From Bacteroidales bacterium (GTDB lineage: Bacteria; Bacteroidota; Bacteroidia; Bacteroidales; UBA932): a stretch of DNA of 64,000 nucleotides. A program made the translations under genes and the position numbers. Shown piece by piece: positions 15,073 through 62,028 of this stretch; position 1 is the stretch's first letter, and each line of letters starts with the position of its first letter. Below the pieces are notes generated by a model, which was not told where the DNA came from, made no database searches, and saw only the letters and a program-made list of their open reading frames with translations. The DNA lies in assembly GCA_017519865.1 (NCBI GenBank), contig JAFWRQ010000014.1:62001-126000 (forward strand). The letters run 5' to 3'.

Positions 15073-17215
15073 AGGAAACCGCGGGAGAGGTTCCCGCAGC
15101 GGCCACGGCGGTCCTCACCGCTCCGGGCTGGCAAAGGCCGCCCGGCGGAGCGGCAGGGGCCGCGGCCCCAAGTCCCTCCAGAGCTATCCCCAGTTCATAG
15201 GCAAGGTCCAGATGAGCCGGGAAGGCTTTATCTTCGTTGTCGTGGAGGGCGAACAGGACGACATCTTCGTCAAGGCGTCCAAGACGAAGAACGCCCTGAA
15301 CGGCGACACCGTCCGCGTAGCGCTGACCAAGGAGAAGGTCGGCATGAAGCGCCGCGAAGGCGAGGTGGTCGAGATCATAGAGCGCTCTACCCGTCCTCAC
15401 GTCGGCGTTCTCCATTTCGTGGGTTCCCAGGCGTGGGTGCTGATGCAGAGCAAGTCGATGCCTTACGACATCGAGGTGGACCAGCAGCAGGCCCTGGAGA
15501 TGGGCGGCAAGTCCGGTATGAAGGCCGCCGCCGTAGTGGACCGTTGGGAGAAATACGACATCGGCCCGAAGGGCCACGTCGTGGATGTGCTGGGCATGCC
15601 GGGCGACAATGATACCGAAATGCACGCGATCCTCGCGGAGTTCGGCCTCCCTTACCGTTTCACCAAGGAAGTGGAGAACGCCGCGGACAAGATCTCCGAC
15701 CGTATCACCTCCAACGACCTCAAGGGCCGCAAGGATTTCCGGGACACTTTGACCTTCACGATAGACCCTGCCGACGCCAAGGATTTCGACGATGCCCTGT
15801 CGTTCCGCAAGCTTGAGAGCGGGAATTATGAGATCGGCGTACACATCGCTGACGTCACGTACTACGTCAAGCCCGGGACCCCCGTCGACAAGGAGGGCCA
15901 GGAGCGCGGAACATCCGTATATCTGGTGGACCGCACGGTCCCCATGCTGCCCGAGAAACTCTCCAACAAACTGTGCTCCCTGCGCCCCCACGAGGATAAA
16001 CTGACCTTCTCGGCCGTATTCGAGGTCTCCCCGAAGGCCAAGGTCGAGAGCCGCTGGTTCGGCCGCACCATCATCAATTCCGACAGGAGGTTCGATTATG
16101 ACGAGGCCCAGGCCATCATCGAATCCGGCCAGGCCCGCGACGGTGTCGAGGAAGCCATCCTTGTCCTGAACAAACTTGCGCTGACGCTTCGCGACCGCCG
16201 TTTCAAGGCCGGGGCGATGAACTTCGAGCGTCCCGAGATGAAAGTCGAGGTGGATGAGAAGGGAAAGCCTGTCAATGTATATGAGAAGGTCTCCAAGGAG
16301 GCCAACTGGCTCATCGAGGAGTTCATGCTCCTCGCCAACCGCAGTGTTGCCGAATACGTCGCCACGGGCGGCAAGATGAACGGCGTGGCGTCCAAGAAAG
16401 CCAAGACGTTCGTCTATCGTATCCACGACGAACCGAACATGGAGAAAGTCGCCGGGCTGCGCGACGTCGCAGGCAACTTCGGGCTCAAGATGGGCGACAT
16501 CAGCAATCCTTCCGCAGTCGCGCAGTCGATAGGCGGCCTCCTGGCCGAAGCCAAGGGCACTCCCTCCTACGACGCCCTGCAGATCATTGCGCTCCGCTCC
16601 ATGGCGAAGGCCAAATACAGCACCGAGAATATTGGCCATTACGGACTGGCATTCAATTTCTACACGCACTTCACCTCGCCCATCCGCCGCTATCCCGACA
16701 TGATGGTTCACCGTCTCCTGTCCATGTACCTCGACGGGGCGGACAGCCAGGACAAGGGTTATTACGAGGCTCAGTGCATGCATGCGTCGGAGCGCGAGAT
16801 CATCGCTACGGACGCCGAACGGGCGTCGGTCAAGTACAAGCTGGTGGAGTTCATGCAGGACAAGGTCGGCATGGAATTCGACGCCCACGTCTCCGGCGTG
16901 ACCGAGTGGGGAATGTACGCCGAGATCGAGCCGACGAAGGTCGAGGGCATGATTCCGCTGCGCACCATCCGCTCGGATTTCTTCGAGTTCGACGAGAAGA
17001 ATTTCCGGATCGTAGGCCGCAGGACCCGCAGGGTCTTCACCCTGGGCGACCCTGTCCGCATCCGCGTCAAGTCCGCCAACCTCGACCAGGTCCTGCTGGA
17101 CTATGAACTGGTCGAGCCGGAGCATGAGGTCGAGCCAGTACCGGACCATCCCGTTCCTCCTCTCCACGCACACCCCCGCAAACCCGCCGCGAAACGAACG
17201 ATAAAAAAGAAATAA
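15062..17215 (+). CDS. rnr: Ribonuclease R
   Basis: A 717-residue 3'-5' exoribonuclease: basic Gly/Arg-rich N-terminus, cold-shock OB domains, the RNB catalytic domain with the metal-binding segment TIDPADAKDFDDALS at about residues 236-250, HFTSPIRRYPDMMVHR, then an S1 domain and a basic Lys-rich tail. It degrades structured RNA in the cytosol. Length is normal for the family. Its ATG overlaps the lpxK end by 11 bases, so translation is probably coupled. The N-terminal tail (GNRGRGSRSGHGGPHR) is of an RNA-binding type. Confidence 0.95.
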   Translation: MSNKGNRGRGSRSGHGGPHRSGLAKAARRSGRGRGPKSLQSYPQFIGKVQMSREGFIFVVVEGEQDDIFVKASKTKNALNGDTVRVALTKEKVGMKRREGEVVEIIERSTRPHVGVLHFVGSQAWVLMQSKSMPYDIEVDQQQALEMGGKSGMKAAAVVDRWEKYDIGPKGHVVDVLGMPGDNDTEMHAILAEFGLPYRFTKEVENAADKISDRITSNDLKGRKDFRDTLTFTIDPADAKDFDDALSFRKLESGNYEIGVHIADVTYYVKPGTPVDKEGQERGTSVYLVDRTVPMLPEKLSNKLCSLRPHEDKLTFSAVFEVSPKAKVESRWFGRTIINSDRRFDYDEAQAIIESGQARDGVEEAILVLNKLALTLRDRRFKAGAMNFERPEMKVEVDEKGKPVNVYEKVSKEANWLIEEFMLLANRSVAEYVATGGKMNGVASKKAKTFVYRIHDEPNMEKVAGLRDVAGNFGLKMGDISNPSAVAQSIGGLLAEAKGTPSYDALQIIALRSMAKAKYSTENIGHYGLAFNFYTHFTSPIRRYPDMMVHRLLSMYLDGADSQDKGYYEAQCMHASEREIIATDAERASVKYKLVEFMQDKVGMEFDAHVSGVTEWGMYAEIEPTKVEGMIPLRTIRSDFFEFDEKNFRIVGRRTRRVFTLGDPVRIRVKSANLDQVLLDYELVEPEHEVEPVPDHPVPPLHAHPRKPAAKRTIKKK

Positions 17216-30661: not shown

Positions 30662-31363
30662 ATGCTCCAGATAAGACGATTCCTCTGCAACGAAGTGTTC
30701 CGCGAACATTGCTGGCTCGCCTGGGACGGCACGTCGGCCGTCCTGGTGGACCCCGGCTTCACTTGTGACGATGAGTTCGCCCCCTTCGAGGATTTTGTCA
30801 GGAAGGAAGGTCTTAAGGTCGATGCTATCCTTGTCACCCACTCGCATTACGACCACATCAGTGGCGTGAGCCGCTGCCTGGACCTGCTCGGATCCGTTCC
30901 GGTGTACATGCATCCGGACGACGTCGAGATGATTGCAATGGCCAGCGACATGGCGCGGCCTTACGGCGGCTGCCCGCCGCTGGCGTTCGACACGGTCGAC
31001 GCCAATGACGGCGACATCATCGCCGCGGCCGGCCGCAAGTGGGAGGTCATCCATACGCCCGGCCACTCCAAGGGCGGCGTCTGCTACTATTGCAGCGAGG
31101 AGTCCCTCCTCTTCAGCGGGGACACCCTTTTCGCCGGCTCGATAGGCCGCACGGACCTTCACGGGGGAGACTACGACAAACTCATCGTCTCCATAATGGA
31201 CAGGCTGATGGGCCTGCCGGGCGATACCGTGGTGCTGCCCGGACACGGCAGGACCTCGACCATCAGCGACGAACGCACGCACAACCCCTTCCTCGAGCCG
31301 TGGGGCGAAAAGGAGCAGGAGGGCATCGACTGGGACGCAGACGGAATAGAACTGAATGGATAA
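30662..31363 (+). CDS. Metallo-beta-lactamase-fold hydrolase (glyoxalase II-like)
   Basis: A 233-residue cytosolic MBL-fold protein. The metal motif THSHYDHISG (HxHxDH) is at about residues 60-69, followed by HTPGHSKGG, FSGDTLFAGSIGRTD and LPGHGRTSTI, giving the complete ligand set of the glyoxalase II/persulfide dioxygenase-like group. A thioester substrate is likely but unproven. The ATG at 30662 follows the promoter. It overlaps the uvrA start by eight bases, so it is the first gene of the uvrA operon. Confidence 0.88.
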   Translation: MLQIRRFLCNEVFREHCWLAWDGTSAVLVDPGFTCDDEFAPFEDFVRKEGLKVDAILVTHSHYDHISGVSRCLDLLGSVPVYMHPDDVEMIAMASDMARPYGGCPPLAFDTVDANDGDIIAAAGRKWEVIHTPGHSKGGVCYYCSEESLLFSGDTLFAGSIGRTDLHGGDYDKLIVSIMDRLMGLPGDTVVLPGHGRTSTISDERTHNPFLEPWGEKEQEGIDWDADGIELNG

Positions 31364-34214
31364 AGGGGAGTATATCAACATAGAAGGGGCCAGGGCGCAC
31401 AACCTCAAGGGCGTGGATGTCAGCATCCCGCGCCGCAAGTTCGTGGTCATCACCGGGCTCAGCGGCAGCGGCAAGTCCTCCCTTGCCTTCGATACGATCT
31501 ATGCCGAGGGCCAGCGGCGCTACATGAACACGCTCTCCCCTTATGCCAAGCATTTCATGGGCATACTCGAGAAGCCGGAGGTCGAGAACATCACCGGTCT
31601 GAGCCCCATCATCGCCATCGAACAGAAGACCACGGTCGGCAATCCCCGCTCGACCGTGGGCACCATCACCGAGATCTACGATTTCCTCCGTTTGCTTTAC
31701 GCCCGCGCATCCAGGGCCTACTCCCCCGTCACCGGCAAGGAAATGGTCCGGTATACCGACGCGCAGATCGTCGACCTGATAATGACCAACTATGCCGGGC
31801 GCAAGTGCATCCTGCTCGCTCCGCTGGTCAGGGGCCGCAAGGGCCACTACCGCGAACTTTTCGAGCAGATGCGCAAGCGCGGCTTCACCCAGGTGCGCAT
31901 CGACGGGGAGATAGTCCCGCTCAACGAGGTGGATGCCCTGGACCGTTACAAGGGGCATTTCATCGAACTTGTAGTGGACAAACTCAAGCCCGGCTCCGGC
32001 GATGTCCAGCGCATCCGCGACTCCGTCGTGAACGCGCTGAACATGGGCAAGGGAGCCCTGGCTCTGCTGGACATTGAGACCGGAGAACTCCAGCATTATT
32101 CCAAGCATCTGGTGGATCCCGAGAGCGGCATTTCGCTCCAGGAGCCGGCGCCGCATTCGTTCTCGTTCAACTCCCCCGAGGGGTACTGCCCCCACTGCAA
32201 GGGTCTGGGAATGATCGTGGACGTCAATATGGACACGATCGTGCCGGACCGCAGCGCCAGCATCGCCGGCGGCGGCATCGTGCCTCTCGGCCGCCTGCGG
32301 GAGAACCGCAAGTTCGATATAGTCCGGGCAATAGCACGCAAGCATGACTTCTCGTTGTACGAGCCCCTGTCGGAGATTCCCGACGAGGCTGTCTCCCTTC
32401 TGGTGTTCGGCTCCGATGAGCTGTTCCGCATCGGCGACGGGGCGCAGAGCGAAATGGTGGCCTGGGACGGCGTCGTCGAGGATATCGACGACAAGGTCGT
32501 CTGCCCGGTCTGCCACGGCACACGCCTCAACGGGAATGCAGGTTATTTCAAGATAGACGGCAAGACCATCTCCGAGGTGTCCGCAATGGAGATTTCCGAG
32601 CTTCAGGCGTGGCTGGCATCGCTCCCGGGCAAGTTCTCGGACAAGGAGCGCACTATCGCCCGCGACATACTCAAGGAACTCACCGACCGTGTGGACTTCC
32701 TGATGGAGGTCGGACTGGAGTATCTTTCGCTGGACCGCCCGACGGGCTCGCTGTCGGGAGGCGAGAGCCAGCGCATACGCCTTGCGACCCAGATCGGGTC
32801 CAAACTCGTCAACGTCATATATATCCTGGACGAGCCGTCCATCGGCCTTCACCAGCGCGACAACCGCAAGCTTATCGCTTCGCTGAAGAAACTCCGCGAC
32901 GAGGGCAATACCGTCATAGTCGTCGAGCACGACCTCGAGACCATGCTCTCGGCCGACTGGCTCGTTGACGTGGGCCCCGGCCCGGGCGAGGACGGCGGCC
33001 GCATCTGCTACAACGGCCCTGTTCCCTTCCAGTCCGGAGGAGTTCCTGCCCCGAAAACGTCCTTCGGACCCCCCCCAAGCATTTCGCTTGGGTCCCCCCC
33101 TCTTATGTTGCCGAGGGTGGCACAGTTTTCCGGGCAAGACTCCTCCGGACCGTCAGTGACTCTTGAGTACCTGGCTGGGGAGAAGTCGATCCCGGTGCCG
33201 AAGAGACGCCGGAAGGGCAACGGACTGACTCTCGGGGTGCGCGGCGCCTGCGGCAACAACCTCAAGGACCTCGACGTAGATTTCCCTCTCGGGACCTTCA
33301 TCGGCGTCGCCGGTGTCAGCGGCAGCGGCAAGTCGAGCCTCGTGAACGAGACACTCATGCCGGTGCTGATGAACAGGTTGTACCGTTCCAAGGACAAGCC
33401 CCTGCCGTACCGGGATGTCGTCGGCGTCAAGAACATAGACAAACTCATAGAGATAGACCAGAGCCCCATCGGGCGCACGCCCCGCTCCAATCCCGCAACC
33501 TTCACGGGTGTCTTCAACGACATCAGGGCCCTCTTCGAGGACACTCCCGACGCCAAGGTACGCGGCTTCAAGGCCGGCCGCTTCTCGTTCAACGTCCCCG
33601 GGGGACGCTGTGAGGAGTGCAAGGGTGCCGGCATCAAGGTCATCGAGATGAACTTCCTCCCTTCGGTCAACGTAGTCTGCGACCAGTGCCGCGGCAAGCG
33701 CTACAAGGAGGACACGCTTGCCGTGCATTACAAGGGCAAGAACATCAACGACGTGCTGGAGATGCCCGTAGCCGAGGCCTATGAGTTCTTCAAGGGTATC
33801 CCCAAGATAGCCCAGAAACTCAAGGCTATGGTGGACGTCGGTCTCGGATACGTCCATCTGGGACAGTCCGCAGTGACCCTGTCCGGCGGCGAGAGCCAGC
33901 GCATGAAACTGGCCGCGGAACTCTTCCGCAAGGCCACCGGCAATACCCTCTATATCCTTGACGAGCCCACGACAGGACTGCATTTCGAGGACATCAAAGT
34001 CCTTCTGGGAGTGCTCGACCAACTCGTGGAACAGGGCAATACCGTCATCATCATCGAACACAACCTCGACGTCCTGAAGAGCGTCGACTACCTGATAGAC
34101 ATGGGGCCGGAAGGCGGCGCCCGCGGCGGGCGCATCGTCTCCTGCGGCACGCCCGAGGAAGTGGCGGCCGACCCTGCCTCAGTAACCGGAAAATACTTAA
34201 AGGAAATATTATGA
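31356..34214 (+). CDS. uvrA: UvrA excinuclease ATPase carrying an in-frame palindromic insert
   Basis: A 952-residue damage-recognition subunit of nucleotide excision repair. First ABC half: ITGLSGSGKSSLAFD, zinc-type CPVCHGTRL, signature GSLSGGESQRIRLA and ILDEPSIGLH. Second half: GVSGSGKSSLVNE (about 650), CEECKGAG...CDQCRGKRY, TLSGGESQRMKLA, ILDEPTTGLH. Between the halves, residues of about 559-599 are foreign to the family. They are encoded by a palindromic repeat at 33032-33150 and include GPPPSISLGSPPLMLPRVAQ. The insert replaces a surface loop before the conserved segment EYLAGEKSIPVPKRRR. All catalytic motifs are intact and the frame is open, so the protein is probably functional. Confidence 0.95.
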   Translation: MDKGEYINIEGARAHNLKGVDVSIPRRKFVVITGLSGSGKSSLAFDTIYAEGQRRYMNTLSPYAKHFMGILEKPEVENITGLSPIIAIEQKTTVGNPRSTVGTITEIYDFLRLLYARASRAYSPVTGKEMVRYTDAQIVDLIMTNYAGRKCILLAPLVRGRKGHYRELFEQMRKRGFTQVRIDGEIVPLNEVDALDRYKGHFIELVVDKLKPGSGDVQRIRDSVVNALNMGKGALALLDIETGELQHYSKHLVDPESGISLQEPAPHSFSFNSPEGYCPHCKGLGMIVDVNMDTIVPDRSASIAGGGIVPLGRLRENRKFDIVRAIARKHDFSLYEPLSEIPDEAVSLLVFGSDELFRIGDGAQSEMVAWDGVVEDIDDKVVCPVCHGTRLNGNAGYFKIDGKTISEVSAMEISELQAWLASLPGKFSDKERTIARDILKELTDRVDFLMEVGLEYLSLDRPTGSLSGGESQRIRLATQIGSKLVNVIYILDEPSIGLHQRDNRKLIASLKKLRDEGNTVIVVEHDLETMLSADWLVDVGPGPGEDGGRICYNGPVPFQSGGVPAPKTSFGPPPSISLGSPPLMLPRVAQFSGQDSSGPSVTLEYLAGEKSIPVPKRRRKGNGLTLGVRGACGNNLKDLDVDFPLGTFIGVAGVSGSGKSSLVNETLMPVLMNRLYRSKDKPLPYRDVVGVKNIDKLIEIDQSPIGRTPRSNPATFTGVFNDIRALFEDTPDAKVRGFKAGRFSFNVPGGRCEECKGAGIKVIEMNFLPSVNVVCDQCRGKRYKEDTLAVHYKGKNINDVLEMPVAEAYEFFKGIPKIAQKLKAMVDVGLGYVHLGQSAVTLSGGESQRMKLAAELFRKATGNTLYILDEPTTGLHFEDIKVLLGVLDQLVEQGNTVIIIEHNLDVLKSVDYLIDMGPEGGARGGRIVSCGTPEEVAADPASVTGKYLKEIL
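33032..33150 (+). repeat. Palindromic protein-coding repeat, copy 1 (in uvrA)
   Basis: About 119 bp. Outer arms: GTCCGGAGGAGT at 33032-33043 pairs with ACTCCTCCGGAC at 33139-33150, then a partly matched CTGCCC block and GAAAAC (33053-33058) with GTTTTC (33125-33130). Inside are a GTCC-TTC-GGAC hairpin, C8, a CCCAAGC-ATTTC-GCTTGGG hairpin, C7, CTCTTATG and a TGCC...GGCA hairpin. The core 33053-33130 is 78 bp. It is the same element as at 61267-61376 and is translated in frame. Confidence 0.9.
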
Positions 34215-60687: not shown

Positions 60688-62028
60688 TTATAAGTAGATG
60701 AGGCGTGATAGATTGTCCGGTGCGAACACGCGTCTGGCGATTTCCTGCAGGTCGGCGGCGGTGACGGCCTCGATGGCGGCCTTGTTCTCGGCGGATGACG
60801 CGACGCGTCCGAAGGCGAGAAGGCTCTTGCCCATCGAGAGGCACTGCGCCTCTCCGGACTCCGAACTGATGGCGAGTTGCCCGAGCAATTGCTTCTTGGC
60901 AGCTTTCAATTTCCTGTCACTGAGCGGCTTGTCCTGCAGGTTGGCGATAGCTTTGTCGATGGCGCGGAAGCATTTTTCGAGGTTGTCCTTGTCGCATCCG
61001 AGGCTTATTGCCATAATGCCTGTGTCGCTGTACTGGGTGTAGCCGCATTCAACGCCGTAGACCCAGCCGTTCTTTTCTCGCAATATGTCGTTGAGGATGG
61101 AGTTGGAGGCTGGGCCGCCGAGGATGTTCGCGAGGAGCACGGCCGCGATGCGGTCCTTCTCCTCGTAAAGCGACGGCGCGGCCCCGCCGATAACGGCGTT
61201 CACCTCGTGGTTCCGCTTGTCGACCGTCCGGTCGAAGAGAGTAGTCTTTACTCGTCCTTCACTTCGCGGAGACACCCCCGTGAAAACGTCCTGCTGCGCA
61301 GGACCCCCCCCAAGCGAGCTTGGGTCCCCCCCTCTTATGATGCCGAGGGTGGCACAGTTTTCAGGGGGCGTCTCCGTCTCCGTTTTGGACGAGGAGAGAG
61401 CAGTACCTAGATATCGTTGAGCAATACGGCGGACAGCTTTTTCCATTCTGGCTTCGTCGAGGTCGGCCATCATCGTAAAGGCCATTCGGTCGGGCGTGAA
61501 GCGCTCGCGGACGAAACGCCGGAGCTCGGCGGAGCTGATCCGGCGCACCGAGGCCGGCGTGCCCAGGATGGGCCGGCCGAGCGGATGCCCCTCGAAGAGC
61601 ATTTCCTCGAAACGGTCGTAGACCTCGTCGGCGGGGGTGTCCTTGTAGGATTGGATCTCGTCGATGACGACGCCCTTCTCGGTCTCGACCTCCCGCTCGG
61701 GGAATGTCGCCTGCGTGGCTAGTTCGAACAGGAGTCCGGCCGCCTTCGGCAGGTCCTCTTTGAGCACAGTCGCGTGCAGGACTATCTCTTCCTTGGTCGT
61801 GTAGGCGTTCAGTTCGCCTCCGAGCCGGTCGAGATAACCGTTCACGACAGCGGCGCTCTTGCGCGCTGTCCCCTTGAAAATGGTATGCTCCGTGAAATGC
61901 GCGATGCCGCCGGGATACCCCGCCTCGTCGCGGGTGCCGCAGCGTATGCTCAATGCGCAGTATCCTACCGAAGACCCGCCTTTCCTCACGGCGTAGCGAA
62001 GTCCGCAATCAACCGTCCCAGTAATCAT
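60688..62028 (-). CDS. M16-family zinc peptidase carrying an in-frame palindromic insert
   Basis: A 446-residue single-unit M16B peptidase. The inverted zinc motif HFTEH is at residues 44-48 with the third ligand near Glu124 (VVIDEIQSYKDTPADEV). The second, structural half contains ILGGPASNSILNDILREKNG and WVYGVE. Between the halves, residues of about 218-254 (containing PPENCATLGIIRGGDPSSLG) are encoded by a palindromic repeat, the same element as in uvrA but read on the other strand. It sits in the flexible inter-domain linker, so both domains remain intact. Confidence 0.9.
   Translation of the reverse strand: MITGTVDCGLRYAVRKGGSSVGYCALSIRCGTRDEAGYPGGIAHFTEHTIFKGTARKSAAVVNGYLDRLGGELNAYTTKEEIVLHATVLKEDLPKAAGLLFELATQATFPEREVETEKGVVIDEIQSYKDTPADEVYDRFEEMLFEGHPLGRPILGTPASVRRISSAELRRFVRERFTPDRMAFTMMADLDEARMEKAVRRIAQRYLGTALSSSKTETETPPENCATLGIIRGGDPSSLGGGPAQQDVFTGVSPRSEGRVKTTLFDRTVDKRNHEVNAVIGGAAPSLYEEKDRIAAVLLANILGGPASNSILNDILREKNGWVYGVECGYTQYSDTGIMAISLGCDKDNLEKCFRAIDKAIANLQDKPLSDRKLKAAKKQLLGQLAISSESGEAQCLSMGKSLLAFGRVASSAENKAAIEAVTAADLQEIARRVFAPDNLSRLIYL
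61267..61376 (+). repeat. Palindromic protein-coding repeat, copy 2 (in the M16 peptidase)
   Basis: About 110 bp. Outer arms CGGAGAC-A-CCCCC (61267-61279) and GGGGG-C-GTCTCCG (61364-61376), then TGAAAAC with GTTTTCA. Inside: GTCCTGC-TGC-GCAGGAC, C8, CCCAAGC-GA-GCTTGGG, C7, CTCTTATG and TGCC...GGCA. The core 61282-61362 is 81 bp. It lies in the same plus-strand orientation as copy 1, hence opposite with respect to its host gene. Confidence 0.9.

Follow-up and report, generated by a model that had tools for sequence, protein, structure and literature searches.

The best-known protein-coding palindromes are those of Rickettsia and Wolbachia. Passages of PMC2229807 and PMC10969869 describe the Rickettsia palindromic elements (RPEs) as repeats of 105 to 146 bp with terminal inverted repeats, which lie in frame in conserved genes and also between genes, and one RPE-bearing enzyme is described there as active. 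Other small palindromes come close to this pattern. In the relevant part of PMC2229807, miniature inverted-repeat transposable elements (MITEs) with open frames (ERIC/RU-1, YPAL/RU-2, RU-3 and the 107-bp Correia element) are small, structured and non-autonomous, and sometimes form in-frame fusions. Repetitive extragenic palindromes (REPs), moved by REP-associated tyrosine transposases (RAYTs), are presented in a section of PMC2817692 as short palindromes in which compensated changes keep the pairing intact. Mitochondrial byps and nematomorph coding palindromes sit inside protein genes, the byps being bypassed in translation (excerpts of PMC6649704). Here we analyzed 64,000 nucleotides of a Bacteroidales genome (assembly GCA_017519865.1, contig JAFWRQ010000014.1, positions 62,001 to 126,000; the whole stretch is called the window below), in which uvrA carries a nested palindrome. 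We consider it probable that this segment belongs to a family of palindromic elements, which in all likelihood dispersed as small, non-autonomous mobile DNA and which, when in frame, are predicted to form a translated loop.

The palindrome in uvrA and its relatives

The preliminary description of the window had placed a 119-bp nested palindrome at 33032-33150, in frame in uvrA, and had taken the extra residues to be foreign to UvrA. Both statements held. When the genome was searched with the 119-bp segment, the arms 33032-33058 and 33125-33150 matched each other in inverted orientation at 89%, the frame 31356-34214 is open throughout, and the RNA fold of the minus strand reached -73.9 kcal/mol, versus -45.1 ± 4.0 kcal/mol for 200 shuffles (z -7.2). 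The protein scored 1223 bits against the NCBIfam UvrA equivalog (cut-off, 1147). Its alignment with a solved UvrA (9gxk) ran to residue 556 and resumed at 599, with 42 residues here where the 9gxk chain has 7. The features of the two copies in the window are as follows.

31356 to 34214, plus strand: uvrA, host gene of copy 1, 952 amino acids (open reading frame, NCBIfam UvrA equivalog, alignment with the PDB UvrA)
33032 to 33150, minus strand: palindromic element copy 1; its core is on the minus strand, hence the '-1' frame for uvrA
33032 to 33058, unstranded: outer arm 1 (P1) of copy 1, from the inverted self-match
33125 to 33150, unstranded: outer arm 2 (P1) of copy 1, from the inverted self-match
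33109 to 33122, minus strand: P2 hairpin TGCC-ACCCTC-GGCA of copy 1, its loop being the first pseudoknot strand (sequence, family covariation, loop variants)
33098 to 33102, minus strand: second pseudoknot strand of copy 1, GAGGG, complement of the loop CCCTC (sequence, loop variants)
60688 to 62028, minus strand: M16 peptidase gene, host of copy 2 (open reading frame; Pfam PF00675 and PF05193)
61267 to 61376, minus strand: palindromic element copy 2, in frame, '+0', ENCATLGIIRGGDPSSLGGGP

The second core, noted earlier at 61282-61362 in an unrelated gene, is real and with its arms spans 61267-61376 of the M16 peptidase gene. A 21-base core matched the window twice at up to 3 mismatches (0 expected), and a covariance model built without both window copies recovered both at 83 to 84 bits (E about 1e-18). 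A chance origin of the two copies is thus excluded. The model also gave a weak match at 16511-16583 (minus strand; 13.9 bits, E 0.26).

A pattern search of the window's genome (G000), whose assembly is 75% complete, found 8 core copies, in seven unrelated genes (uvrA, M16 peptidase, aroK, pcrA, dnaX, a mtaB-like radical-SAM gene and recR) and at one intergenic site, gpmI/manA. These first seven hosts were checked by their domains; the names mtaB, gpmI and manA were given from translation. A short remnant lies in ribF of the same genome, and the riboflavin-kinase/FAD-synthetase linker of ribF holds copies or a remnant, with different arms, in several species (L009, L058, L063, L066, L080, L124, L151 and L186; identified by Pfam for L009 and by flank similarity for the other seven loci).

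The genus of the window's genome is probably Cryptobacteroides in GTDB, a name in use within the Bacteroidales. The core was present in 36 of 61 genomes of the genus, the window's own included, with 289 matches and a maximum of 25 per genome, while a reversed control pattern gave 3 matches in the same search, one each in three genomes. The loci collected at that stage held 171 distinct elements. A scan of named genomes returned at least 119 stretches with the core, all in Bacteroidales or Bacteroidia assemblies, many of them titled after ruminant gut samples. Samples of more than 40 genomes were searched with stricter filters, under which weak relatives may have been missed: the covariance model matched 6 of 393 genomes of the order at E ≤0.001, the window's own among them, and none of 394 others sampled from the phylum at E 0.0001, where the window's genome alone matched. 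Outside this genome, the order-wide matches comprised a weak one in G334 (same genus), 2 copies in G525 (same family, different genus), 11 in G577 and 3 in G607, both from other families, and a weak one in G427. A viral origin was considered and dropped, as viral contigs held no exact match to the core pattern and the uvrA copy had no blastn match in phages.

The window had been suspected to hold an RPE-like, protein-coding palindrome of a Bacteroidota member, to be checked by copies in many unrelated genes and by UvrA orthologs lacking the insert. That suggestion is supported by the 8 copies in unrelated loci and by the absence of the insert from many orthologs. Among 30 uvrA loci, which were the best-scoring from 400 genomes, so that close and insert-bearing relatives are over-represented, and whose printed sequences were judged by eye, this family was seen in 6 (the window's own included), other palindromes in 4 and neither in 20. 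The uvrA query matched 374 of the 400 genus genomes; among the matches listed, 9 cross the insert and the others end beside it. The gpmI/manA site lacks the element in G105, G214 and G193 and is the best candidate for a lineage-specific insertion.

Other palindromes use the same places. The uvrA linker of G125, G144 and G191 (L207, L210 and L211) holds a different family in frame, with the inner part CTCCCCCTTCGGGAGTTCGCCC...TTACGTCCCTCAGGGGGA (slightly changed in L211) and arms that vary between copies, which marks the linker as a hot spot for several families. A third small palindrome, GCCGAGCTTAGGCCG...CGGCCGGGCTCGG, which has arms of its own, was seen in L306 and L309, at sites that hold the main family in a sister genome.

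Arms, hairpins and a pseudoknot core

Read 5' to 3' on the strand of the core, the element opens with a copy-specific arm and a GAAACC-like inner end, followed by the pseudoknot hairpin; next come a variable hairpin closed by a G-rich stretch and one more hairpin, and GGTTTC leads into the second arm. The loop CCCTC of the hairpin NGCC-ACCCTC-GGCN can pair with GAGGG a few bases downstream, giving an H-type pseudoknot. Inverted arms were found in 163 of the 167 elements with enough sequence on either side of the core (median length, 28 nt; complementary in 91% of the aligned columns), their sequence differing among copies, whereas a mixed control joining the left side of one element to the right side of another reached the same arm threshold in only 8 of 167. 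Across the 26 innermost positions, 76 to 100% of the pairs were Watson-Crick in the 153 best elements (n falling to 121). The element measured 100 to 150 bp in 150 of the 163.

For covariation, 71 non-redundant elements were selected by core length (55 to 80), arm complementarity (at least 14/16) and a short spacer. A MAFFT alignment (A1) comprised 63 of the 71, with two spacer lengths; a second (A2) and the covariance model comprised the 35 with a three-base spacer. These 35 elements contained 165 double-changed cells, versus 52 ± 6 after shuffling and 9 to 26 with the partner slid, and changes on both sides were seen in 8/8 inner arm pairs, 2/6 pairs of the pseudoknot hairpin and 8/12 pairs of the other two hairpins. 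As selection was partly by arm complementarity, helix 1 was favored in this test; the hairpins were not. The arm figures of the preceding paragraph come from elements that had not been selected in this way.

The pseudoknot is invariant among the 35 aligned elements because the core served to find them. Independently of that set, 6 loci have other loops (CCCGT four times, CCCGC once and CCCAC once), and at all 6 the downstream partner is complementary. Since the four CCCGT loci belong to one subfamily, they make three independent cases. The remaining 21 entries in the list of loop variants, L329 (listed twice) excepted, are register shifts of the G-run or second readings. That a pseudoknot is conserved within coding sequence suggests selection on the folded nucleic acid rather than on the peptide. 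Rfam 15 gave only sub-threshold chance matches for 8 loci and for window positions 32900-33300; twister, pistol and HDV-like (hepatitis delta virus-like) ribozymes, candidates raised by eye, had no Rfam support and were rejected.

Two variant arrangements were observed. In pcrA of G214 (L356), an extra insert of very roughly 80 to 90 bp lies between the pseudoknot hairpin and its partner, an insert nested in an insert. In G577 (L400, L404 and L393), the arm motif GAAGGAATATGCTT also occurs as solitary copies and as repeated units pointing to the element, 78 bp apart in L400.

Core direction, arm origin and reading frame

We compared the elements at orthologous sites, using 213 elements with an arm score of at least 18 and skipping pairs whose flanks were more than 99.5% identical. 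Of 113 pairs, 57 had cores of opposite direction and 56 had cores of the same direction. Random arm pairs had a similarity of 0.47 ± 0.10, with a 99th percentile of 0.73. Because their arms reached this percentile, 29 of the 113 pairs were each taken as one insertion, and among them 14 were opposite and 15 alike in direction. In the window's genome such arms were found at uvrA (versus G105 and G214), dnaX (versus G193) and mtaB (versus G214 and G105). The clearest flip is between L188 (G017, a genome of the window's genus) and L261 (G424), whose arm asymmetries are reversed along with the core. Where both frames were given, a flip exchanges '-1' and '+0', namely, in uvrA (L001 versus L204 and L206) and in L098 versus L181. 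DNA polymerase switching templates between the arms could flip the core in place and would tend to equalise the arms; according to passages of PMC8604942, template switching of this kind can both make inverted-repeat arms uniform and invert the spacer between them.

Alternatively, opposite directions could reflect independent insertions at hot spots. In 84 of the 113 pairs the arms fall below the top percentile of random pairs, and the same sites are used by different element families. Nevertheless, in 14 opposite pairs the similarity of the locus-specific arms reaches the 99th percentile, where about 1 in 113 would be expected, and one opposite pair has its arm asymmetries inverted too. We regard independent insertion as an unlikely account of the opposite directions. 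Inversion in place has its own difficulties. At pcrA (versus G105, 0.55) and M16 (versus G214, 0.45) the directions are opposite and the arms lie within the random range, and independent insertion is possible at both. Arm homogenisation is partial: in the 26 pairs analyzed of the 29, a change was matched in the other arm at 69 arm positions and unmatched at 134, some via indels. Same-site pairs have loci in common and are not independent, the relatives named are metagenome assemblies, and the yeast spacer inversions in the part of PMC8604942 concerned are of 2 to 5 bp, compared to about 60 to 80 bp in the Bacteroidales element.

At first we took the arms to be inverted target duplications made on insertion, the stem deriving from each site. 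In favor of this, the arms differ among copies, and one arm resembles an apparently empty ortholog in L204/L209, L262/L307 and L252/L305. However, same-site arms are alike in relatives (at uvrA, dnaX and mtaB their similarity reaches the 99th percentile of random pairs), the arms follow a loose consensus across sites, one arm sequence is common to the G577 copies, and two G017 copies 1 kb apart have related arms. This explanation was dropped, and we now give it little credence. Several apparently empty sites of near relatives (L209, L276, L279, L305 and L307) retain stretches like one or both arms; as arms travel with the element, such sites are more likely deletion scars.

The reading frame was examined in 191 elements with an arm score of at least 20, using a codon-usage score of the flanks. 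Both flanks were coding on the same strand in 76; in the other 115, one or no flank was confidently coding or the flanks were on opposite strands. Phase was kept across the element in 59 of the 76 (about 25 expected at random), and 55 of those were stop-free. Of the 20 copies with stops, 13 have one no more than about 30 nt ahead of the element, an arrangement that tandem genes would produce. With these set aside, 55 of 63 read through where a gene enters the element. Among the 55, frame '+0' was used 23 times, '-1' 21 times and '+2', which holds an invariant TAA, never. In the 136 copies beyond the in-frame set, '+0' was open in 98 and '-1' in 95, while shuffles were open in 35% and 41%, respectively; the openness of the two frames is thus largely the element's own property. 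At all 30 uvrA sites, length differences were multiples of 3. Five inserted peptides, both window ones included, matched no Pfam or NCBIfam model. The in-frame copies are predicted to give the host protein an additional, translated surface loop. A flip would swap the open peptide ATLGxxRGG... for ...PPLxxPRVA, and the host protein would survive since '+0' and '-1' are mostly stop-free, while copies that broke essential genes would have been lost.

A pseudoknotted, strongly folding RNA segment within a gene could also be an untranslated insert, bypassed by the ribosome or removed from the mRNA like the yeast mitochondrial byps, which are themselves palindromic inserts in coding genes (excerpts of PMC6649704). 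As bypass or splicing needs neither an open frame nor a length in threes, the 55 of 76 copies that are open and in threes weigh against this, as do the preserved frame at 30/30 uvrA sites and the lack of an Rfam match near threshold, and we find it very improbable. About as improbable is a regulatory structure of the host (terminator or attenuator) in place of mobile DNA. A stop codon lies no more than about 30 nt upstream of 13 of the 76 copies, but copies also lie in the coding frames of conserved genes, in both directions and patchily among orthologs. We rate this the least probable of the alternatives.

Probable mobility and comparison with known systems

Mobility in trans best explains copies that are repeated, dispersed, structured and patchy. 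An enzyme acting in trans may recognise the folded core, as RNA or as single-stranded DNA, and such recognition would conserve the structure even within coding sequence. Matches to PF01797 (Y1 transposase; E 0.001) were found in all 8 element-bearing genomes of the genus tested, 2 of them below the family cut-off.

Several points nevertheless speak against spread as translated, folded mobile DNA. No transposition was observed. By eye, no target-site duplication was seen at gpmI/manA or in other gene pairs, the pairs being about 70 to 95% identical. No mobilising gene was identified, PF01797 being the sole family searched. This family also occurs in 3 of 7 genomes that were element-free in earlier searches (1 of 5 of the genus and both of the 2 other family members) and in none of 3 element-bearing genomes outside the genus, and no element core lies in the 3.2 kb around the PF01797 gene of G000. 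In 7 copies the first stop falls in or after the element, so that broken or shortened genes are possible, and L134 is stop-free yet out of phase. On a weaker covariation measure, that of further pair types, 29 of 500 shuffles came up to the observed value, and the pseudoknot partner of L329 is GGGGG, which gives a U-G wobble.

A RAYT as the mover correlates only partially with the presence of the element and is kept as a lead. The G000 gene, at L422 (G000:C9:38308-38523), is a divergent Y1 transposase-like gene whose open frame has 316 codons. Repeated GCATCCTTCGGGAAATGCCCGAAGG palindromes lie downstream of it; gene and palindromes possibly form a separate REP-RAYT pair. G577 was considered as the source of an autonomous copy and rejected, since its arm motif is found both singly and in tandem and no long autonomous element was found in the loci examined.

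More speculatively, and against our expectation on balance, the family might represent a new class of mobile element that travels as pseudoknotted RNA or single-stranded DNA and acts as a reversible switch in essential genes, each in-place flip exchanging translated loops in UvrA, PcrA, DnaX, RecR and other repair or replication proteins and so providing a population with heritable protein variants. Independently of a switch, a large family in another phylum (289 matches in the 61 sampled genomes of the genus) supplies ample material for comparison, and makes testable the entry of mobile DNA into protein sequence, a coding insert open in both directions and an enzyme moving small folded elements.

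Compared to MITEs, the Bacteroidales element is likewise small and structured, with terminal inverted repeats, and sometimes in frame. On the other side, no target-site duplication was seen in the gene pairs examined (about 70 to 95% identical), its arms diverge between copies yet stay paired, and it has a pseudoknot core. With the REPs moved by RAYTs it shares the palindrome and the compensated changes, but it is longer and often lies in genes in frame, and the PF01797 gene of G000 (L422) is not flanked by two inverted element copies. Byps are described in excerpts of PMC6649704 as bypassed by ribosomes; that most Bacteroidales copies with coding on both sides keep the frame speaks against such an insert. 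The nematomorph palindromes, as far as the same excerpts go, lie in mitochondrial genes as long, perfect inverted repeats and apparently do not form a dispersed family that shares a core.

The closest likeness is to the RPEs. The Bacteroidales element, too, is a palindrome of about 100 to 150 bp with terminal inverted repeats at many unrelated loci, and its copies lie in frame (55 of 76 stop-free) as well as between genes (gpmI/manA). The comparison supports the view that the family works like the RPEs, the likeness being one of architecture. The differences are that the five inserted peptides match no NCBIfam or Pfam model, that the host belongs to the Bacteroidales and not to Rickettsia (Alphaproteobacteria), that a conserved pseudoknot core and in-place inversion are added, and that RPEs are said, in a passage of PMC6649704, to lose arm identity with time, whereas the Bacteroidales arms are 91% complementary. 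We found no description of such elements in Bacteroidota in the open-access literature, itself weak evidence of absence. Relative to RPE-like elements, the Bacteroidales family, its pseudoknot core and its in-place inversion are new.

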